Of a DNA stretch of 64,000 bases, positions 8,889 to 24,932 are shown piece by piece. Origin of the DNA: Blastopirellula marina DSM 3645 (GTDB lineage: Bacteria > Planctomycetota > Planctomycetia > Pirellulales > Pirellulaceae); contig NZ_CH672376.1 in NCBI RefSeq assembly GCF_000153105.1, forward strand, positions 392,711 through 456,710. Reading direction: 5' to 3'. Numbering within the stretch: the stretch's first letter is position 1; the number at the start of each line of letters is the position of its first letter. The translations under genes were made by a program, and so were the position numbers. Under the pieces are notes generated by a model that saw only the letters and a program-made list of their open reading frames with translations, ran no database searches and was not told the origin of the DNA.

Positions 8889-9191
8889 TTCTGGTTCGCG
8901 GTGACATCAAAACGCATCCAAGCATTCGATTTTCCCCTCCTGGCGGCGCTCCGCGAAACTGGCGATTGCTTGCGTCTAGGCGCCCTATTCTTCCACGGTT
9001 TCTCTATTGTCGCGCAACCATAGAACTCCAGCAAGGGAGAAGCCGACAATCACGCGCCCCGCTTCCTCGGTTGTCTACCAATTGCTTGGTCCTTGCTTAT
9101 CACCGATTTGTCGGAGCCCCGAGGAAATGCTACAAACGTGAATCCTCTTCGAGGGGTGTCGATAAGAGACGACTCTCCTACAACGGCCAAC
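8889..9191. other. Divergent intergenic region
   Basis: About 300 bases between the CPCC gene and the RND exporter. It should hold both promoters. No recognisable gene, and no strong hairpin or clear operator seen. Confidence 0.35.
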
Positions 9192-11405
9192 ATGCCTCCC
9201 AAAGACGCTAGCATGCGAAGTTCGGCCATGATCGCGGTGGTGCTTGTTCAATTTCTGATCGGCGCCTTGATCTGCATCGTCGGCATCTTGCGGATCGACA
9301 CGAACATCGAAGATGTCATGCAATGGCTCCCCGACCATTCGGACGAGCGTGCGTTGTATGAGTCACTCGTATCGCGGTTTGGCGTCGATGACTTTCTGCT
9401 GGTAACGTGGGACGGCTGTATGGCCGGCGACCCGCGCCGGCAACGGGTCGAAGATCGGTTGCAGCAAGACGATGTGAACGGGCTGGTCGCGAAGACGATC
9501 TCCGGCGCCGACTTACTGGAGACCAACGGCGCGGCCTATGAGACGCCGGCTGCGATCATCGAGCGGTTTCGCGGGTTTTTCTTTGGTCAGAACGACCAGA
9601 CTTGCATCGCGATCATTCTGACCCAATCAGGCATGACCAATCGCTTGGAGTCGATGGAGTTTGTCGAAACGGTCGTGCGCGATAGCGTGGGCGCCGATCA
9701 ACCGGGGTTGCTGATCGTCGGTTATCCGGCGATCTCGGCGGAAGGGGATAAGCTGATCCGCCAAAACCTGACCAACGCGTTGTTGCCGTGTTGCCTGTTG
9801 GCGACGGGGGTGGCTTGGTTCTTTCTCCGAGATCTGCGGCTGGTTCTGGTGGTCTTCCTCACCAGCGGCGTCGCCAGCGGCACGAGCATCGCCATGGTGA
9901 CCTTGAGCGGTTACAAATGGGGCGGACTCACATCGGCGATTCCTGCGCTCACGTTTATCCTGTCGGTCTCCGGTACGCTGCACCTGATCAATTATGCACG
10001 CGGCGCCGAACATGATTCGATCGCGGCAACGGCGCTGCGGCTTGGTTGGAAGCCGTGTCTATTTTCCGCATTGACGACGGCGGTCAGCATGCTGTCGCTT
10101 AGTCATAGCGAATATCAAGCGATCCGCGAGTTCGGGTTCTTCTGCGCTGTGGGCGTCGTGAATTCGGTCTTTTGGCAATTGGCGTTCGCGCCTTGGGCGC
10201 TGCAGTTGATCGCAGGAAAAATCGAGACCGGTCGCGCTGGCGCTTCGCTGGTGCGGATGCATGATTGGACAGCGGCGCATTCCCTGTTTGTCTTTGGCGT
10301 GTTCACCGTGACGCTCGTAGTGACCGCTAGTGGATTGCCGCTGCTCCAGAGCGGGCTCGAGGTCGAAGAGATGTTTGGATCTGAGATCGCGACGATTCGC
10401 GACGTCGCCCGCTTTGAGGCGAAGATCGGTCCGATCGATCAAACCGAACTGCTGATCGAGTTTTTTGACGCGGATCCGGCCCAGGTCGCGGATCGAGCGG
10501 CCGCGATTCGCCAACTGCAAACAGCACTGGTAGAGACCCCGGAAGTTGACGCAACTTTGTCCGCGACCGCTTGGCTGCCGCCGGAATCGGAGCAGCGCGG
10601 GATCGCCGGCGTGAGCGCGCGCGTCTTGTACCGCAAGAAACTGGCCGGCTTACGTGAGCAATTGACCGAGACCTCTTATTTGTCGCTCCAGTCGTCTCCC
10701 GCTGGCGAAGCAACCGAAACTTGGCGAATCAGTCTACGTTTTCCCTTTTCCAAAAGCGTTGATTTTGAGCAGCTGCGCGATTCGGTGGCGATTGTCGCCC
10801 AGCAGGAACTAGTGAAACGCTATTCGCCTGACCAGATCCAGATTCAACAGACCGGCGTCGGTCTGCTGTACCACGTCGCGCAAAACAAGTTAATGGCCGA
10901 TCTCTTTTTTAACTATCTGCTGGCGTTCGCCGTCATCTGCCCGTTGATGATGCTGGCCCTTTGGTCGGTTCCGTTGGGGCTGTTGTCGATGATCCCCAAC
11001 TGCTTTCCGGCGATCTGCTTGTACGGAGCGATCGGGCTGTGGGGGCAACCAATCGATATCGGGATCGCGATCGCCGGTTGTATCGCGCTAGGAATCGCGG
11101 TCGACGATACGACCCATTTCATGATGCGGGCCAAAGAAATTGCATTCCGCGAGGGGGGATCGACCAGAATCACTCGCAGCGCGATCCGCACCGCCTATTC
11201 GCAATGTTCCCGCGCCATGTTGGCGACCACGTTGATCGCATCGGTGGGACTGGCCGCTTTCTTAAACCAGACGTTGTTGGTGATGTCTCGCTTCTCGCTG
11301 GTCTTGATACTCTCGCTGCTGATCGCACTGGTGTGCGATCTGTTGCTGCTGCCGGCGCTGCTTTATACGTTTCGCGTGACGGATCAAGTGGATGTAGACG
11401 CGTAA
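9192..11405 (+). CDS. RND/MMPL-family exporter
   Basis: Inner-membrane transporter of about 737 aa with the RND superfamily layout: one N-terminal helix, a large periplasmic loop (about 35-185), a five-helix block, then a second loop and block. The second block contains GIAVDDTTHFMM, matching the proton-relay region of MMPL/HpnN-type lipid exporters, and the first block has a sterol-sensing-like fold. The size suits a standalone bacterial lipid exporter rather than a tripartite drug pump. I took the ATG at 9192; an ATG at 9213 and a TTG at 9093 are alternatives. It converges on the acyl-ligase fusion gene with only 34 bases between them, so its cargo may be that enzyme's lipid product (inference). 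Confidence 0.88.
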   Translation: MPPKDASMRSSAMIAVVLVQFLIGALICIVGILRIDTNIEDVMQWLPDHSDERALYESLVSRFGVDDFLLVTWDGCMAGDPRRQRVEDRLQQDDVNGLVAKTISGADLLETNGAAYETPAAIIERFRGFFFGQNDQTCIAIILTQSGMTNRLESMEFVETVVRDSVGADQPGLLIVGYPAISAEGDKLIRQNLTNALLPCCLLATGVAWFFLRDLRLVLVVFLTSGVASGTSIAMVTLSGYKWGGLTSAIPALTFILSVSGTLHLINYARGAEHDSIAATALRLGWKPCLFSALTTAVSMLSLSHSEYQAIREFGFFCAVGVVNSVFWQLAFAPWALQLIAGKIETGRAGASLVRMHDWTAAHSLFVFGVFTVTLVVTASGLPLLQSGLEVEEMFGSEIATIRDVARFEAKIGPIDQTELLIEFFDADPAQVADRAAAIRQLQTALVETPEVDATLSATAWLPPESEQRGIAGVSARVLYRKKLAGLREQLTETSYLSLQSSPAGEATETWRISLRFPFSKSVDFEQLRDSVAIVAQQELVKRYSPDQIQIQQTGVGLLYHVAQNKLMADLFFNYLLAFAVICPLMMLALWSVPLGLLSMIPNCFPAICLYGAIGLWGQPIDIGIAIAGCIALGIAVDDTTHFMMRAKEIAFREGGSTRITRSAIRTAYSQCSRAMLATTLIASVGLAAFLNQTLLVMSRFSLVLILSLLIALVCDLLLLPALLYTFRVTDQVDVDA

Positions 11406-11439: not shown

Positions 11440-14400
11440 TCACGACGTAGAGAGTGAGGAGTTCGAGCGAGAAACGGTGATGGTTCGCTTTTCCACTCCT
11501 TTTGCCGCCAACACTCGTTCCATGTGGCTTTGGGATTGCGTCGTCGACAACGCTTGGAAGACGCTGAGCGCACTGTCGATCTCATCTTCGGTCAACGACG
11601 CAGTCACGGTCGCGCGGATTCTTGGCTTGTCCATCGGCACGGCTGGATAGAAGACCGGCACGACAAAGAGCCCGTGATCGCGACAGAAACCGACGGCTTC
11701 CAGCGTTTCTTGCTCGGTCGAGAAGATGATCGGAACGACCGCCGATTCGGTCGGCGGCACTTCAAAACCAAGTTGCCGCAGCCCGTTCACAAATTGGTCG
11801 CACAACCCTCGCAGGCGATCGGCCAAATGGGTCTCGCGTTGAATGATCTCCAAGCATTTGCGAGCCGCGCCGACTTGGGCCGCCGGCAAGGCCGCCGAGA
11901 AGACGAAGCCTCGGGCGGTATGCTTGAGAAAGTCGATGATCTCTTGGCGAGCCGCGATAAAGCCGCCGCAGCTGGCGATCGACTTCGAGAGCGTGCCCAT
12001 CTTGATGTCGATCGCGTCGTCCGGCAGGTCGAAGTGTTCTTGAATTCCCTTGCCGGTTTTGCCGATCACGCCCAAGCTGTGCGCTTCGTCCACCATCAAC
12101 ATCGCGCCGTACTCGCGACATAGTTCGATGATGCGTGGGAGCGGAGCGATATCGCCTTCCATCGAATAGACGGCGTCGACGATGACAAGCATGCGTCGTC
12201 CACGGTGTTCTTTGAGAAGCTGTTCCAGCTCTTCCATGTTGTTGTGAGAGAACATCAGGAAGGTCGCCGCCGAGAACTGGCAGCCGTCGACGATGCTCGC
12301 ATGGTTCAGCTCGTCGCCGATGACGAAGTCCCCTTTGCCGACCAGAGCGGCGACCGTCGCCAGATTCGTCATGAAGCCGCTGCTATAGACGATCGCGTCG
12401 TCGGAATGGAAGAACTTGGCTATCTCCTGCTCAAGTTGTCGATGCGCGTCAAAGGTGCCGGCCAGCAGACGCACGCCGTGGGCGCCTGTCCCGTACAAGG
12501 CGATCGCTTCTTCAGCAGCCTGGTTGATCTCGGGTCGATTGATCAGGCCCAGATAGCTGTACGACGCCATCATCAGCATCTTTCGGCCGTCGACCCAGAC
12601 ATGACTGCCTTCTTGTCTTTCGATCACGGTGCCGAAGTAGTCGTGCCCTGCATCGCGAAATTGATGAAAGCGTTGGAGGCCTTCTTGGAAGAAGCCGAGA
12701 TAGTCGGCCTGCGTCAGCGCCGCACGCCCATTGCCGCCGGCCAACGAATTGGAAGGTACGCGACGACCGAGGAACTGACTCAGCTCGTCGATGGTATGTT
12801 GCTGATAAAGCGTGTCGGCTTCGACGCTGAAGCCCAACTTCTTCTCGAGCCGAGCGCCGATGTCGGCGGCCGCCAGCGAGTCGACGCCGAGCGACGTGAA
12901 CGTCGTGTGTCCATCTAGCGGCGGGAGCTGTTGCTCTTCGTCGCTGGCCCACGCTTGCAAAATGTCGCAGATGATCGTGGTCAGTTCGGCCGAACCAGAG
13001 AGAGAAGTCTCGACCGTTTCCGGCGTGCGGACCGCCGATTCAAAGACGATTTCAAAATCGCCGCTTTCAAAGCGTTTTTTGGCGAGTTGCCGCTGTACTT
13101 TTCCGCTAGAAGTAGTCGGAAAGGTCGTGGGGCGCACGAACATCAAATCGGTCAGCGCCACTTCAAACTGATTGAGGATCGCCGAGCGAAGCGTGTCGAT
13201 CTTGTGGTGAAGATCGACCACCTCGCCGTTGCCGCCGCCGTTGTTGGACCAGCGAACCATCTCGCGCGTTCCTGCGGCGATTACCAGCAGTTTTTCTTCG
13301 CCATTGCTCTCGACCGAAAATGCGGCGCAACTGTTCGGTTCGATCACTTCGAAGTGCTGCTCAACCAACTCCTCAATATCTTGCGGATAGATATTTCGAC
13401 CGCGAATGATGATCAGGTCTTTCAGGCGACCGGTGACATACAATTGTCCGTCGCGGAGAAAACCATAGTCGCCGGTACGGAGCCAGTTGCGATCGTCTCC
13501 CGCTAACTTGGCTTGGAACGCTTCGACGGTCTCGTTGGTCCGATGCCAGTATCCCTGAGCGACGCTGTCGCCGTTGAGCCAGATTTCTCCAACCTCTTGG
13601 GCTTTGCGCTCGACAAAAGTCTGGGGATCGACGATCCGAACTTCCAGGTCAGAGCCGACCTGGCCGCAACTGACAAGCGGTTGCCCCTGATCCGAATCGA
13701 CAATCCGATGCTGGACGAGTTGGGCGGAGTCGACCCTGGCAATTTCGGTGTGCGCAAGCGGCGGACCGCCAGAAACGAGGAGCGTCGTTTCGGCCATGCC
13801 GTAGCAAGGGAAGAAGGCCTCCGAACGGAAGCCGCAGTCGGCGAACGCTGCACTGAACCGCTGCAGAGTCTCGGCACGGACTGGCTCGGATCCGTTGAAG
13901 GTGATATTCAAGGTCGAGAGGTCGAGGCTTTTCTTCTGCTCGGAAGTGATTTTTTTCGCGCACAGATCGAAGGCGAAATTGGGAGCGCCGGTCGCTGTCG
14001 CGCCGAAGTCCGTCACCGTTTGCAGCCACTTGATCGGTTCGCGCAGGAAGGTGTTGGGCGCCATCAGCACCGACGGGGCTCCGACAAACAGCGGCGCCAG
14101 AATGCCGCCGATCAGACCCATGTCGTGGAACATCGGCAACCAAGAGACGACCAACGAATCTTGGGTGAATTGAAAATACTTCTGGATCAGACGCTCGTTG
14201 GCGACGATGTTTCCATGCGTCACCATCACTCCCTTGGGAACTGCGGTCGAGCCCGACGTGTATTGCAGGAACGCCAATTGGTCGCTGCGAAGTTGCGGCA
14301 ACGATCCGCAGCGCGATGTGCTCAGTTCATTGGTCGCAAGGACCGCAGATCGCGGCATCGCACGCGCGATTTCCGCTTCGACATTCCGCTTGGTCTCGGA

Positions 14401-14748
14401 AGCGCAGAGCAACAAACGCGGAGAACAGTCCTCGGCGATGGTGAGGATACGTTCCGCGTTGCGATTCTTCTTGGGGGGATAGGCGGGGACTGCGACGATC
14501 CCGGCGTACAGACAGCCGAGAAAAGCTTCAATGAAATCAAGACCGGCGGGGTACATCAGCAACGCTCGATCGCCAGGTTCAACAACCTGCAGTAAGCGGT
14601 GAGCTATTTCCTGAGCACGTGAATCGAGATCTCGGTAGTTGACCGAGATCTGCTCGTCGTCCGATTTCAGAAAGGTAAATGCGGCATTGTCCCCCTGCGA
14701 TTCCACATGGGAACGCAAGGAATCAAGGAGGGTCTCGGGCTTCTTCAT
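11440..14748 (-). CDS. Fusion: fatty-acyl-AMP ligase / ACP / alpha-oxoamine synthase
   Basis: A 1102-aa three-domain enzyme. Residues 1-570 are a fatty-acyl-AMP ligase: YTSGST at 163-168, YGMAE at 316-320, the FAAL-type GRLKDLIIIRGRNIYPQDIE at 440-459, and SGK with the catalytic lysine at 550. Residues about 590-662 are an acyl carrier protein with GVDSL, Ser624 being the phosphopantetheine site. Residues 704-1080 are a PLP-dependent alpha-oxoamine synthase (serine palmitoyltransferase/BioF/KBL family) with DEAH at 887-890 and the PLP lysine in GTLSKS, Lys922. The expected chemistry is to activate a fatty acid as acyl-AMP, load it on the ACP and condense it with an amino acid, losing CO2, to give a 3-ketosphinganine-like amino ketone. 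The amino acid (Ser, Ala or Gly) cannot be read from sequence. Monocistronic. Confidence 0.93.
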   Translation of the reverse strand: MKKPETLLDSLRSHVESQGDNAAFTFLKSDDEQISVNYRDLDSRAQEIAHRLLQVVEPGDRALLMYPAGLDFIEAFLGCLYAGIVAVPAYPPKKNRNAERILTIAEDCSPRLLLCASETKRNVEAEIARAMPRSAVLATNELSTSRCGSLPQLRSDQLAFLQYTSGSTAVPKGVMVTHGNIVANERLIQKYFQFTQDSLVVSWLPMFHDMGLIGGILAPLFVGAPSVLMAPNTFLREPIKWLQTVTDFGATATGAPNFAFDLCAKKITSEQKKSLDLSTLNITFNGSEPVRAETLQRFSAAFADCGFRSEAFFPCYGMAETTLLVSGGPPLAHTEIARVDSAQLVQHRIVDSDQGQPLVSCGQVGSDLEVRIVDPQTFVERKAQEVGEIWLNGDSVAQGYWHRTNETVEAFQAKLAGDDRNWLRTGDYGFLRDGQLYVTGRLKDLIIIRGRNIYPQDIEELVEQHFEVIEPNSCAAFSVESNGEEKLLVIAAGTREMVRWSNNGGGNGEVVDLHHKIDTLRSAILNQFEVALTDLMFVRPTTFPTTSSGKVQRQLAKKRFESGDFEIVFESAVRTPETVETSLSGSAELTTIICDILQAWASDEEQQLPPLDGHTTFTSLGVDSLAAADIGARLEKKLGFSVEADTLYQQHTIDELSQFLGRRVPSNSLAGGNGRAALTQADYLGFFQEGLQRFHQFRDAGHDYFGTVIERQEGSHVWVDGRKMLMMASYSYLGLINRPEINQAAEEAIALYGTGAHGVRLLAGTFDAHRQLEQEIAKFFHSDDAIVYSSGFMTNLATVAALVGKGDFVIGDELNHASIVDGCQFSAATFLMFSHNNMEELEQLLKEHRGRRMLVIVDAVYSMEGDIAPLPRIIELCREYGAMLMVDEAHSLGVIGKTGKGIQEHFDLPDDAIDIKMGTLSKSIASCGGFIAARQEIIDFLKHTARGFVFSAALPAAQVGAARKCLEIIQRETHLADRLRGLCDQFVNGLRQLGFEVPPTESAVVPIIFSTEQETLEAVGFCRDHGLFVVPVFYPAVPMDKPRIRATVTASLTEDEIDSALSVFQALSTTQSQSHMERVLAAKGVEKRTITVSRSNSSLSTS

Positions 14749-14880: not shown

Positions 14881-15444
14881 TAAGCAATCCTTTGCCGGAT
14901 CGAAAATGGCTCGATTGGTTTTTATTCAAAACCGAAACGGAGGGGGCGACTTTTCTGCCTGCGGGGTTTTTGCCGCCTCTAGCGTCTTGTCTAGCCCGTT
15001 CAAAGGTGATGGCTCGCGATCTCTCAAGGTTCCGAACGGAGAATCGTGGCTTGCGAATCACCGCCAGGTGCGTCATGGATCTCGCCATCAGAGCTCTCTG
15101 GCGGTCAAAGCGATCCAGATGGCCGTAAGTTGTTTCATGTCAAGCAATATCGATCTCGAACGATCGCGTTCTAGTCCTTGCTTACATCCGGTCAAGATCT
15201 CGGCCGCTCGTGGTCTTACATCGCGGATCGCTCAACGTAAATGCCCCCAGAGCCAGGGGACGTGCCCGTAATCTGAATCGCCTAATGATCGCATGGCGCC
15301 ATCCGACGCAGGTGGTGAATTTGGCGCGGGTTGTTCGGCGTTGTCTTCGCCAGGGCGGTTGTGCGGGTAGTCATGCTCGATCGGATCGCCAGAGGCCCAT
15401 AAATCGAACAATCGTGCGGAATCAGGATCTCCCCCAAGCGATCG

Positions 15445-15666
15445 CTATAGGTCGCAATCTTGCTCTCTCAATTTCTGTTCCAGCCATGCGATTCCTCGTT
15501 CTGTTCCCCTTTCCCAATCGCTCAACAGGTGATCTGTATTCGCCAATGCCCCGGGATTGATTCCAGTCAATTTGAGGATCAACGCTTCCACTTGCTCAGG
15601 AAACGGGTGCATTTTGTGAACCAACAGATCCGTCAGTGGGTGGTCGTGTGGTCGTCCATTTCCCAT
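15445..15666 (-). CDS. Small conserved-looking protein, possibly truncated
   Basis: A 73-aa cytoplasmic protein starting MGNGRPHDHPLTDLLVHKMH. A GGGGAG ribosome-binding site overlaps the end of the YjbQ gene, only 3 bases away, so it is co-transcribed with it. Its TAG stop (15445-15447) is followed in the same frame by 70 open codons to a TGA at 15232, including the motif HNRPGEDNAE, which resembles [10 protein letters not shown] in YjbQ. The protein may therefore be a truncated form of a longer ancestor. Function unknown. Confidence 0.65.
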   Translation of the reverse strand: MGNGRPHDHPLTDLLVHKMHPFPEQVEALILKLTGINPGALANTDHLLSDWERGTERGIAWLEQKLREQDCDL

Positions 15667-15669
15667 TGG

Positions 15670-16104
15670 TCACTCCCCAATCACCTTCACCAAAATCCGC
15701 TTCCGCCGCTTCCCATCAAACTCGTAATAAAAAATATGCTCCCACGGCCCCAGATGCAGCTTCCCCTTGGTGATCGCGACCACCACTTCGCGTCCCATGA
15801 TCTGGCGTTTGTGATGCGCATCGGCGTTGTCTTCGCCGGTGCGGTTGTGCAGATAGCCTCCTTGGGCAGGATCGCTGCCGGGGTTGAAGGGAACGAGTTG
15901 TTCGAGCCAACGATCATAGTCGGCGTGCAGGCCTGACTCGTTGTCATTGATAAAGACAGACGCGGTGATGTGCATCGCATTCACTAGCACCATCCCTTCT
16001 TGCACGCCGCTGTCGGCGACCGCTTGCTCGATGTCGCGGTGGATCGAGATGATTTGCCGCCGTTGCGGCACGTCCATCCAAAGTTCTTGGGTGTGCGATT
16101 TCAT
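15670..16104 (-). CDS. yjbQ: YjbQ/UPF0047 family protein
   Basis: A 144-aa single-domain protein, full length for UPF0047 (YjbQ). Family members show weak secondary thiamine-phosphate synthase activity, but their true role is unclear. Diagnostic motifs are [12 protein letters not shown] near residue 45, [19 protein letters not shown] at 86-104 with the conserved metal-site histidines, and [14 protein letters not shown] near the end. It is the first gene of a two-gene unit with the 73-aa protein. Confidence 0.93.
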
Positions 16105-24326: not shown

Positions 24327-24932
24327 TTATTCTTCGAAGATGCCTTGTCCGAACTTCCGTTTGCGCTGCGGTTGTGACGAACCGGCGGTCGGTTGATGCG
24401 GACCAGACGGGTTGGGCTGCGGAGGATGCGTTTGTCCTGTCGATTCGCTCGCCGATTTTTGAGAAGAGCGGTTCCCATCGTCAAACGAATCTTCTTCAAA
24501 GAATTCTTCGCCGGCGTCTCCATAGAAGTCGTCGTAGCGCGAACGATAGCCTGGTTGTTTGGCGGTTTCGACCTCTTTTTCGTATTCCTCGATGACGCGG
24601 TTTTGGATCATCTCGCGACACTCCGAGTTGATCGGGTGGGCGATATCGGCGTACAGTTTGGCGCGCCCATCGGCCGTTCGTTCGGCCGGCGGCAAGCGCA
24701 GACGAAAACCGCAGTTGTTGCAGTAGCCGGCGCGCAGATGATTTTTGCCGCCGCATTGCGGACAGTGGGCGGTCAGTTTACGACTGGGCATCGCAACAAA
24801 CGGACCGCTGGCGCCTTCGATGATCTTGAGATCGCGCACGACGAACGAGTCGTCAAATGTGATCGAACAAAATCCACGTAGACGATCGCTGGCGTCTTCC
24901 ATGAGTTTGATACGAACTTCGGTGATGTTCAC
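24327..24932 (-). CDS. spoVG: SpoVG-family protein with inserted zinc ribbon
   Basis: A 201-aa DNA/RNA-binding regulator of the SpoVG family. The SpoVG core is clear: ITEVRIKL at the start, FVVRDLKIIEG, FVAMPSRK at 45-52, and YADIAHPINSECR at 94-106. Between those last two lies an insertion with Cys57, Cys60, Cys71 and Cys74 (CPQCGG, CNNCG), a zinc ribbon absent from the Bacillus-type protein of about 95 aa. A long acidic then Gln/Pro/Ser-rich tail extends from 125 and ends KRKFGQGIFEE. It lies directly downstream of ispE, close to the order in Bacillus (ispE-purR-yabJ-spoVG). Confidence 0.92.
   Translation of the reverse strand: MNITEVRIKLMEDASDRLRGFCSITFDDSFVVRDLKIIEGASGPFVAMPSRKLTAHCPQCGGKNHLRAGYCNNCGFRLRLPPAERTADGRAKLYADIAHPINSECREMIQNRVIEEYEKEVETAKQPGYRSRYDDFYGDAGEEFFEEDSFDDGNRSSQKSASESTGQTHPPQPNPSGPHQPTAGSSQPQRKRKFGQGIFEE

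Follow-up and report, generated by a model that had tools for sequence, protein, structure and literature searches.

A one-chain FAAL-ACP-alpha-oxoamine synthase from an apparently separate lineage in Blastopirellula marina: a probable entry enzyme for a long-chain amino lipid

Here we describe a protein, P0001, encoded on the minus strand of a 64,000-nucleotide stretch of the Blastopirellula marina DSM 3645 genome (contig NZ_CH672376.1; hereafter, the window), in which a fatty-acyl-AMP ligase (FAAL), an acyl carrier protein (ACP), and a pyridoxal-phosphate (PLP)-dependent alpha-oxoamine synthase (AOS) are joined on one chain. P0001 probably performs, within one chain, the entry steps towards a long-chain amino lipid. 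The layout itself has been known since 2013; what appears to be new is the separate lineage of the protein, its distinct AOS subgroup, and an unusual amino-acid pocket. The gene and its parts are as follows:

11440..14748, minus strand: FAAL-ACP-AOS chain gene, 1102 aa (P0001), from the reading frame, Pfam, and frame conservation
13039..14748, minus strand: FAAL domain, residues 1-570, from Pfam, Protein Data Bank (PDB) sequence matches, and fold
12769..12963, minus strand: ACP domain (PP-binding), residues 596-660, with the phosphopantetheine Ser624 at 12877-12879, from Pfam and a motif check
12679..12768, minus strand: ACP-AOS linker, residues 661-690, probably flexible (predicted local distance difference test, pLDDT, below 50 for residues 664-712)
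11533..12678, minus strand: PLP-dependent AOS domain, residues 691-1072, with Lys922 at 11983-11985, from Pfam, PDB matches, and alignments
12472..12561, minus strand: span with three altered amino-acid-pocket positions, Tyr730, His757, and Val759, from a residue comparison with serine palmitoyltransferase (SPT)

The frame runs from an ATG at 14748 to a stop at 11440 and is intact in three congeners, whose versions are 93, 77, and 74% identical to it and differ from it at the three codon positions by 61/30/230, 208/111/493, and 231/137/545, respectively; this conservation, together with the third-position excess in each of them, argues for a selected protein rather than a chance frame. Pfam matches above the curated cut-offs to AMP-binding (residues 12-401, 237.8 bits), PP-binding (596-660, 48.8 bits), and Aminotran_1_2 (723-1062, 175.7 bits) lie in that order on the chain, which is the layout termed A-CP-PLP2, and a DIP2-like AMP C-domain (444-566) was matched at 27.7 bits against a cut-off of 27. 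Ser624 sits within GVDSL and Lys922 within GTLSKS, and the AOS PLP-site residues His816, Asp887, His890, Lys922, and Arg1045 are present in P0001 and invariant across the 44 rows of alignment A1, the Asp887 position being Asn in two of 21 rows of the planctomycete type II clade in the larger AOS tree set. P0001 is thus confirmed as a one-chain FAAL-ACP-AOS protein, as a first-pass annotation of the letters had proposed, with a FAAL at 1-570, an ACP at Ser624, a PLP-dependent AOS at Lys922, and every catalytic residue in place. The further suggestion that acyl activation, carriage, and condensation form a self-contained unit is borne out by the predicted domains and their catalytic residues, and P0001 is real, complete, and probably active.

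Among PDB sequences, the N-terminal part matched FAALs best, led by that of a Synechococcus olefin synthase (7R7F, 494.7 bits) and followed by Legionella FAAL 3KXW (417.9 bits), with just 104.1 bits for the best 4-coumarate CoA ligase; the domain can be assigned from these scores to the FAAL class, closer to FAALs than to acyl-CoA ligases. The AOS domain best matched SPT (3A2B/8GUH, 300.5 bits), followed by ThAOS (272.7 bits), with weaker matches to KBL (237.8 bits), BioF (209.3 bits), and ALAS (178 bits). A whole-chain model (mean pLDDT 71.4, predicted TM score 0.44) returned FAALs first in a structure search, with a poor overall fit (root-mean-square deviation of about 16); its second half matched 8GUH at a TM score of 0.89 (by target length) and KBL and ThAOS at 0.85-0.88, so that the AOS enzymes cannot be told apart by fold alone. 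The top PDB match, a Sphingobacterium SPT, and the likeness of GTLSKS to the SPT motif GTFSKS speak for an alternative that we consider possible but doubtful, namely that P0001 is a true SPT fused to FAAL and ACP that makes 3-ketosphinganine for canonical sphingolipids. Against it, the NCBIfam SPT models, scored on whole P0001, all fell under their cut-offs (378.5 versus 640, 328.7 versus 500, and 264.7 versus 670 bits).

The AOS tree comprised 71 rows after removal of planSolo_G053, whose translated piece was not an AOS domain; its bootstrap was not quite settled, a rebuilt tree gave the same groups, and approximately unbiased (AU) tests were carried out by constraint. P0001 and three orthologs formed one group (support 100/100), joined next by six ACP-AOS didomains (100/95), which belong to the same family but to other genera, and then by a polyketide synthase (PKS)-borne AOS from Streptomyces (98/86 and 99/86). 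Both the SPT clade (99/99) and a clade of BioF, KBL, ALAS, and ThAOS (100/98) exclude P0001. The grouping with BioF or KBL that the first-pass annotation had named beforehand as speaking against its proposal was therefore not seen, and the tree comparison that it had called for placed P0001 outside BioF, KBL, and ALAS and also outside the SPT clade, though kinship with the latter was not rejected by the AU test given below. By its sequence kinship, the P0001 AOS is a distinct subgroup of the family.

These data also bear on the view that P0001 is a fused enzyme of biotin synthesis or threonine catabolism, of BioF or KBL type, which we judge very improbable. BioF was the highest-scoring NCBIfam AOS model (TIGR00858, 385.7 bits), and Val759 is common to KBL; nevertheless, the score lies under the BioF cut-off of 426.45, the KBL models reached 303.3 of 493 (TIGR01822) and 364.2 of 460 (NF005394), a separate BioF in the same genome scores over the curated cut-off, and constraining the P0001 clade to join either enzyme gave p-AU values of 0.046 for BioF, barely below 0.05, and 0.023 for KBL. 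BioF or KBL identity was rejected on these grounds.

The fusion itself appears to have a history apart from that of other planctomycete chains, which form a separate AOS clade together with PKS-AOS domains (the provisional labels triII and triIII turned out to cover a single mixed group in the AOS tree as well as the FAAL tree); two chains from cyanobacteria are placed within the SPT clade. A single AOS clade was rejected for the 25 planctomycete chains (p-AU 3.7e-5) and for 27 chains with the two cyanobacterial ones included (p-AU 6.7e-4), as was a single clade for 23 chain FAALs (p-AU 3.9e-5). In the FAAL tree, repeated with six of 61 rows left out (two on long branches, and four whose first domain is not a FAAL), P0001 grouped with the planctomycete FAALs L073 (a FAAL-ACP), L074, and L076 (100/100) and stood apart from the FAALs of other planctomycete chains (99/98). 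Judged from both trees, P0001 belongs to a small lineage that is separate in both halves. In the likeliest history, a planctomycete FAAL whose family members mostly stand alone was fused, within one genus, with an ACP-AOS didomain, and this fusion is most likely separate from that of the widespread planctomycete FAAL-ACP-AOS proteins.

The planctomycete FAALs closest to that of P0001 (L073:1384-4534, L076:8941-11814, and L187:902-4092) each lie beside a fatty-acid desaturase gene, with the ACP fused in L073 and adjacent in L187. In four of the 25 planctomycete chains (G026, G051, G089, and G123), the first domain is very distant from FAALs, and Pfam, applied to two of the four, found AMP-binding with another C-domain. 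The AMP-binding-ACP-AOS chains at L058, L059, L060, and L061 have a first domain that is not a FAAL (by Pfam for L059 and L061 only), and by sequence they represent another origin of the layout.

The search for proteins with the same domain order that the first-pass annotation had suggested showed the layout to be widespread in the family. Of 149 genomes of this family, 68 or more have a single match that extends from FAAL to AOS, a count that excludes chains whose match is split in two; the 68 comprise four of the window's genus (its own genome and three at 75-93%) and 64 of other genera at 37-42%, one of which runs across two stops. In a phylum-wide set of 294 genomes, only two among the matches listed, both of the same genus, have the P0001 type (78-100%), and the P0001 lineage was found in four of four genomes of its genus. 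The same genome encodes a second FAAL-ACP-AOS chain of 1145 aa (L009:7565-11002; G000:C2:2583627-2586899), which is of the widespread type with a Tyr-Ser-Ser pocket, as well as a 2562-aa PKS (KS-AT-DH-ER-KR-ACP) ending in an AOS (L010:331-8019; G000:C3).

The amino-acid pocket sets the P0001 subgroup further apart. For the SPT of Sphingobacterium, water-mediated contacts are reported between Asn52 and the hydroxyl of serine and between Ala79 and the side chain, with Ser81 contacting the carboxylate (PMC10196870). The equivalent residues in P0001 are Tyr730, His757, and Val759, so that the SPT pocket is not retained; all three positions are replaced, whereas type II and SgaB-like rows retain Ser at the last, which argues against a true SPT. 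In the P0001, type II, and other tri-domain sets, every row (38/38) has Tyr at the first position, as against Asn in 30/30 rows of the SPT, cysteate, KBL+ThAOS, BioF, and ALAS sets, with two Tyr and one Cys in three rows outside these sets; across 122 distinct AOS sequences of the loci compared, there were 68 Tyr, 51 Asn, and 3 other residues or gaps. His757 occurs in 13/13 rows of the P0001 clade and in 0/55 other grouped rows, although the Ala79 position varies even inside the SPT clade (Thr in 7, Ala in 2, and Ser in 1 of 10 rows). Val759 is found in 11 of the 13 P0001-clade rows, with Ala in the other two, and the ACP-AOS didomains likewise carry a Tyr-His-Val or Tyr-His-Ala triad. At this third position, which is the V79 site of ThAOS and where KBL is described as having Val but SPT and AONS as having Ser (PMC11906848), our alignment has Val in 5/5 KBL+ThAOS rows and Ser in 10/10 SPT-clade rows; by analogy, Val759 is a hint, though no proof, that the amino acid is small. 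Some support for serine, and with it for the SPT alternative, comes from a quick tree that unites the related type II clade with AOS enzymes of SgaAB-like PKS clusters, PfSgaB itself using L-serine almost exclusively (PMC12134224).

Domain order, catalytic residues, frame conservation, and domain kinship are matters of observation, and from the enzyme families to which the domains belong we infer the chemical steps, dimerisation, and transfer in cis that follow. The FAAL would make an acyl-AMP from a free fatty acid and ATP, and the ACP of the same chain would take over the acyl group on its phosphopantetheine arm at Ser624. The AOS domain, presumably as a dimer with PLP on Lys922, would then catalyse condensation of this acyl group and a small amino acid, which would yield CO2 and a long-chain alpha-aminoketone. 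As to that amino acid, we would put glycine or L-alanine just short of an even chance, L-serine clearly behind them, and any other amino acid slightly behind serine; serine is thus a possible substrate, but glycine and alanine are not the less likely ones. The sphingoid-like or amino-ketone pathway proposed in the first-pass annotation can accordingly be upheld for its amino-ketone chemistry, as predicted from sequence, while its sphingoid side is weakened by an AOS that lies outside the SPT clade and has a different pocket. A more speculative extension, which we hold only tentatively, is that the remodelled Tyr-His-Val pocket takes a non-serine amino acid and that this second one-chain synthase, evolved in one planctomycete genus apart from the serine-type FAAL-ACP-AOS enzymes of its relatives, founds an undescribed 1-deoxy or other non-serine sphingoid-like lipid, exported by an MMPL-family transporter.

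Several results weigh against this picture of kinship, substrate, and origin. Joining the P0001 clade to the SPT clade gave a p-AU of 0.067, so that, next to the values for BioF and KBL, SPT kinship alone is not rejected, by a small margin, which counts in favour of the SPT alternative. Wild-type ThAOS, with the same Val, turns over Gly, Ala, Aba, and Ser (PMC11906848); Val759 therefore cannot decide the amino acid, and the loop that bears it and His757 (755-764) has a pLDDT below 50 in the model. No sphingolipid-pathway gene was recognised by Pfam or NCBIfam in 19 neighbouring frames between 191 and 29243 (two frames directly upstream of the gene, 15210-15560 and 15460-15936, lay outside the scan); nor was a reductase gene recognised among the neighbouring frames scanned, which also tells against a canonical SPT. 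The link through the ACP is weak: of 14 other ACPs compared with that of P0001, the nearest outside the genus is a didomain ACP at 35% identity, and most didomain ACPs do no better than one stand-alone ACP encoded next to a FAAL. Finally, a single old fusion with later splits in relatives may be compatible with the one-clade rejections too, although it is less simple because both halves would need to have split.

The gene that adjoins P0001 encodes the candidate exporter, here put forward by association only:

9093..11405, plus strand: MMPL-family transporter gene, convergent neighbour, from the domain scan and synteny

This gene adjoins the P0001 gene in 4/4 congeneric genomes (73-100% identity). 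For two of these four, G370 and G121, one search showed a TAG inside the aligned stretch and another showed open frames of 751 and 747 aa. Outside the genus, in ten further genomes, no match covering most of the protein exceeded 32%, and shorter pieces reached up to 43%. The pairing of a solitary gene with an MMPL neighbour in every congeneric genome, and the location of Streptomyces AOS relatives in PKS or fatty-acid-type clusters, would suit an aminoketone that is an MMPL-exported signal or secondary metabolite rather than a membrane-lipid precursor. We regard this as unlikely: the MMPL gene is convergent rather than co-transcribed with that of P0001, and all four genomes likewise keep a sulfatase gene, which in the window lies about 8 kb off, so that synteny is general there and the MMPL-P0001 pairing is an association only.

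Some side loci deserve mention. At L062:6365-10000, an AOS of the P0001 subgroup is fused in frame to DUF3419 (PF11899), which we take to be BtaA of betaine-lipid synthesis, and the codon-position GC pattern runs on through the linker. A general AOS-BtaA link was rejected, as an AOS-DUF3419 fusion was recognised in 1/392 genomes, with other long DUF3419 frames (948, 701, 775, and 1184 aa, and some shorter) lying outside the check. In the window's genome, a DUF3419 gene followed by a methyltransferase-like gene (L274:6796-8813; G000:C1) resembles a BtaA/BtaB betaine-lipid pair, the second gene being methyltransferase-like only through its likeness to the methyltransferase at L183:241-981. A Legionella lytica plasmid (L264:7941-12812) carries what looks like the entry to a sulfonolipid, with genes for a FAAL-ACP-ComA fusion, for a 2-phosphosulfolactate phosphatase, and for an AOS that groups with a cysteate-transferase-like row. 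Within the window, a SpoVG-like protein (24327-24932, minus strand) lies beside an ispE-like gene and scored 95.9 bits against an NCBIfam cut-off of 108.

If P0001 is the entry enzyme proposed here, the question of planctomycete sphingolipid-like lipids becomes testable on one protein that should require only a phosphopantetheinyl transferase as partner. The layout would have at least two separate origins, and probably three with the cyanobacterial chains; such recurrence would suggest that joining acyl activation to an AOS is repeatedly useful, perhaps because it shields the activated fatty acid from CoA metabolism. As a sequence marker, the pocket triad sets off an AOS subgroup, and it cautions that not every SPT-like match should be taken for a sphingolipid producer.

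With regard to known systems, a search of the literature, in which preprints and most subscription journals were not covered, returned no function or product for a FAAL-ACP-AOS chain. The layout itself is on record, as a 2013 survey lists A1ZVW4 of Microscilla marina and A3ZWL3 of Blastopirellula marina as A-CP-PLP2 in its Table 2 (PMC3870968). These entries ruled out novelty of the layout, and with the many same-family chains counted above they speak against novelty of the fusion, a question that the first-pass annotation had left undecided. Like P0001, A-CP-PLP2 proteins carry AMP-binding, carrier-protein, and Aminotran_1_2 domains on one chain, the likeness being one of layout. The same survey modelled a domain of a Synechococcus AMP-binding enzyme (B1XHP8) on SPT 3A2B and called SPT its closest relative (PMC3870968); in our trees, the cyanobacterial and the widespread planctomycete chains differ from P0001 in having AOS and FAAL domains of other lineages. 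Several FAAL fusions are named in PMC8460268, none with an AOS in the accessible part of its text.

The closest kin of the P0001 AOS are the ACP-AOS didomains of same-family genomes (L181-L186), which lack a FAAL on the chain and for which we know of no function. In an E. coli operon (L265), whose genes we take to be the spt genes, FAAL, short-chain dehydrogenase/reductase, ACP, and AOS are encoded by neighbouring separate genes. AasR, AcpR, and SPT of Caulobacter and E. coli are likewise separate proteins, as the first-pass annotation had stated of Caulobacter, and a specialised acyl-ACP feeds the AOS (PMC9386255); the same paper names E. coli BL21 among the carriers of spt. P0001 would share these three activities and the feeding of an AOS by acyl-ACP, but the separate enzymes lie on distant branches in both trees and have Asn at the Asn52 position. 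BioWF also fuses acyl activation to an AOS, but it makes an acyl-CoA from pimelate for biotin, and no ACP is named in the accessible part of that text (PMC9544090).

In PfSgaAB, an iterative PKS and an AOS make sphinganines (PMC12134224); as proposed for P0001, the AOS condenses an acyl chain with an amino acid, but a PKS makes the chain and the AOS is a separate protein. On Paraburkholderia and Pseudomonas plasmids (L282 and L283), iterative-type PKS genes are closely followed by an AOS gene, and the encoded AOS enzymes carry Tyr-Ser-Ser and group in the quick tree with the type II planctomycete clade, not with P0001. These loci resemble PfSgaAB, a link drawn by kinship and gene order, with the PfSgaB sequence itself not in the comparison. 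The grouping of SgaB-like AOS enzymes with the type II clade makes the 1145-aa paralog the better sphinganine-type candidate in this genome, and P0001 the odd one.

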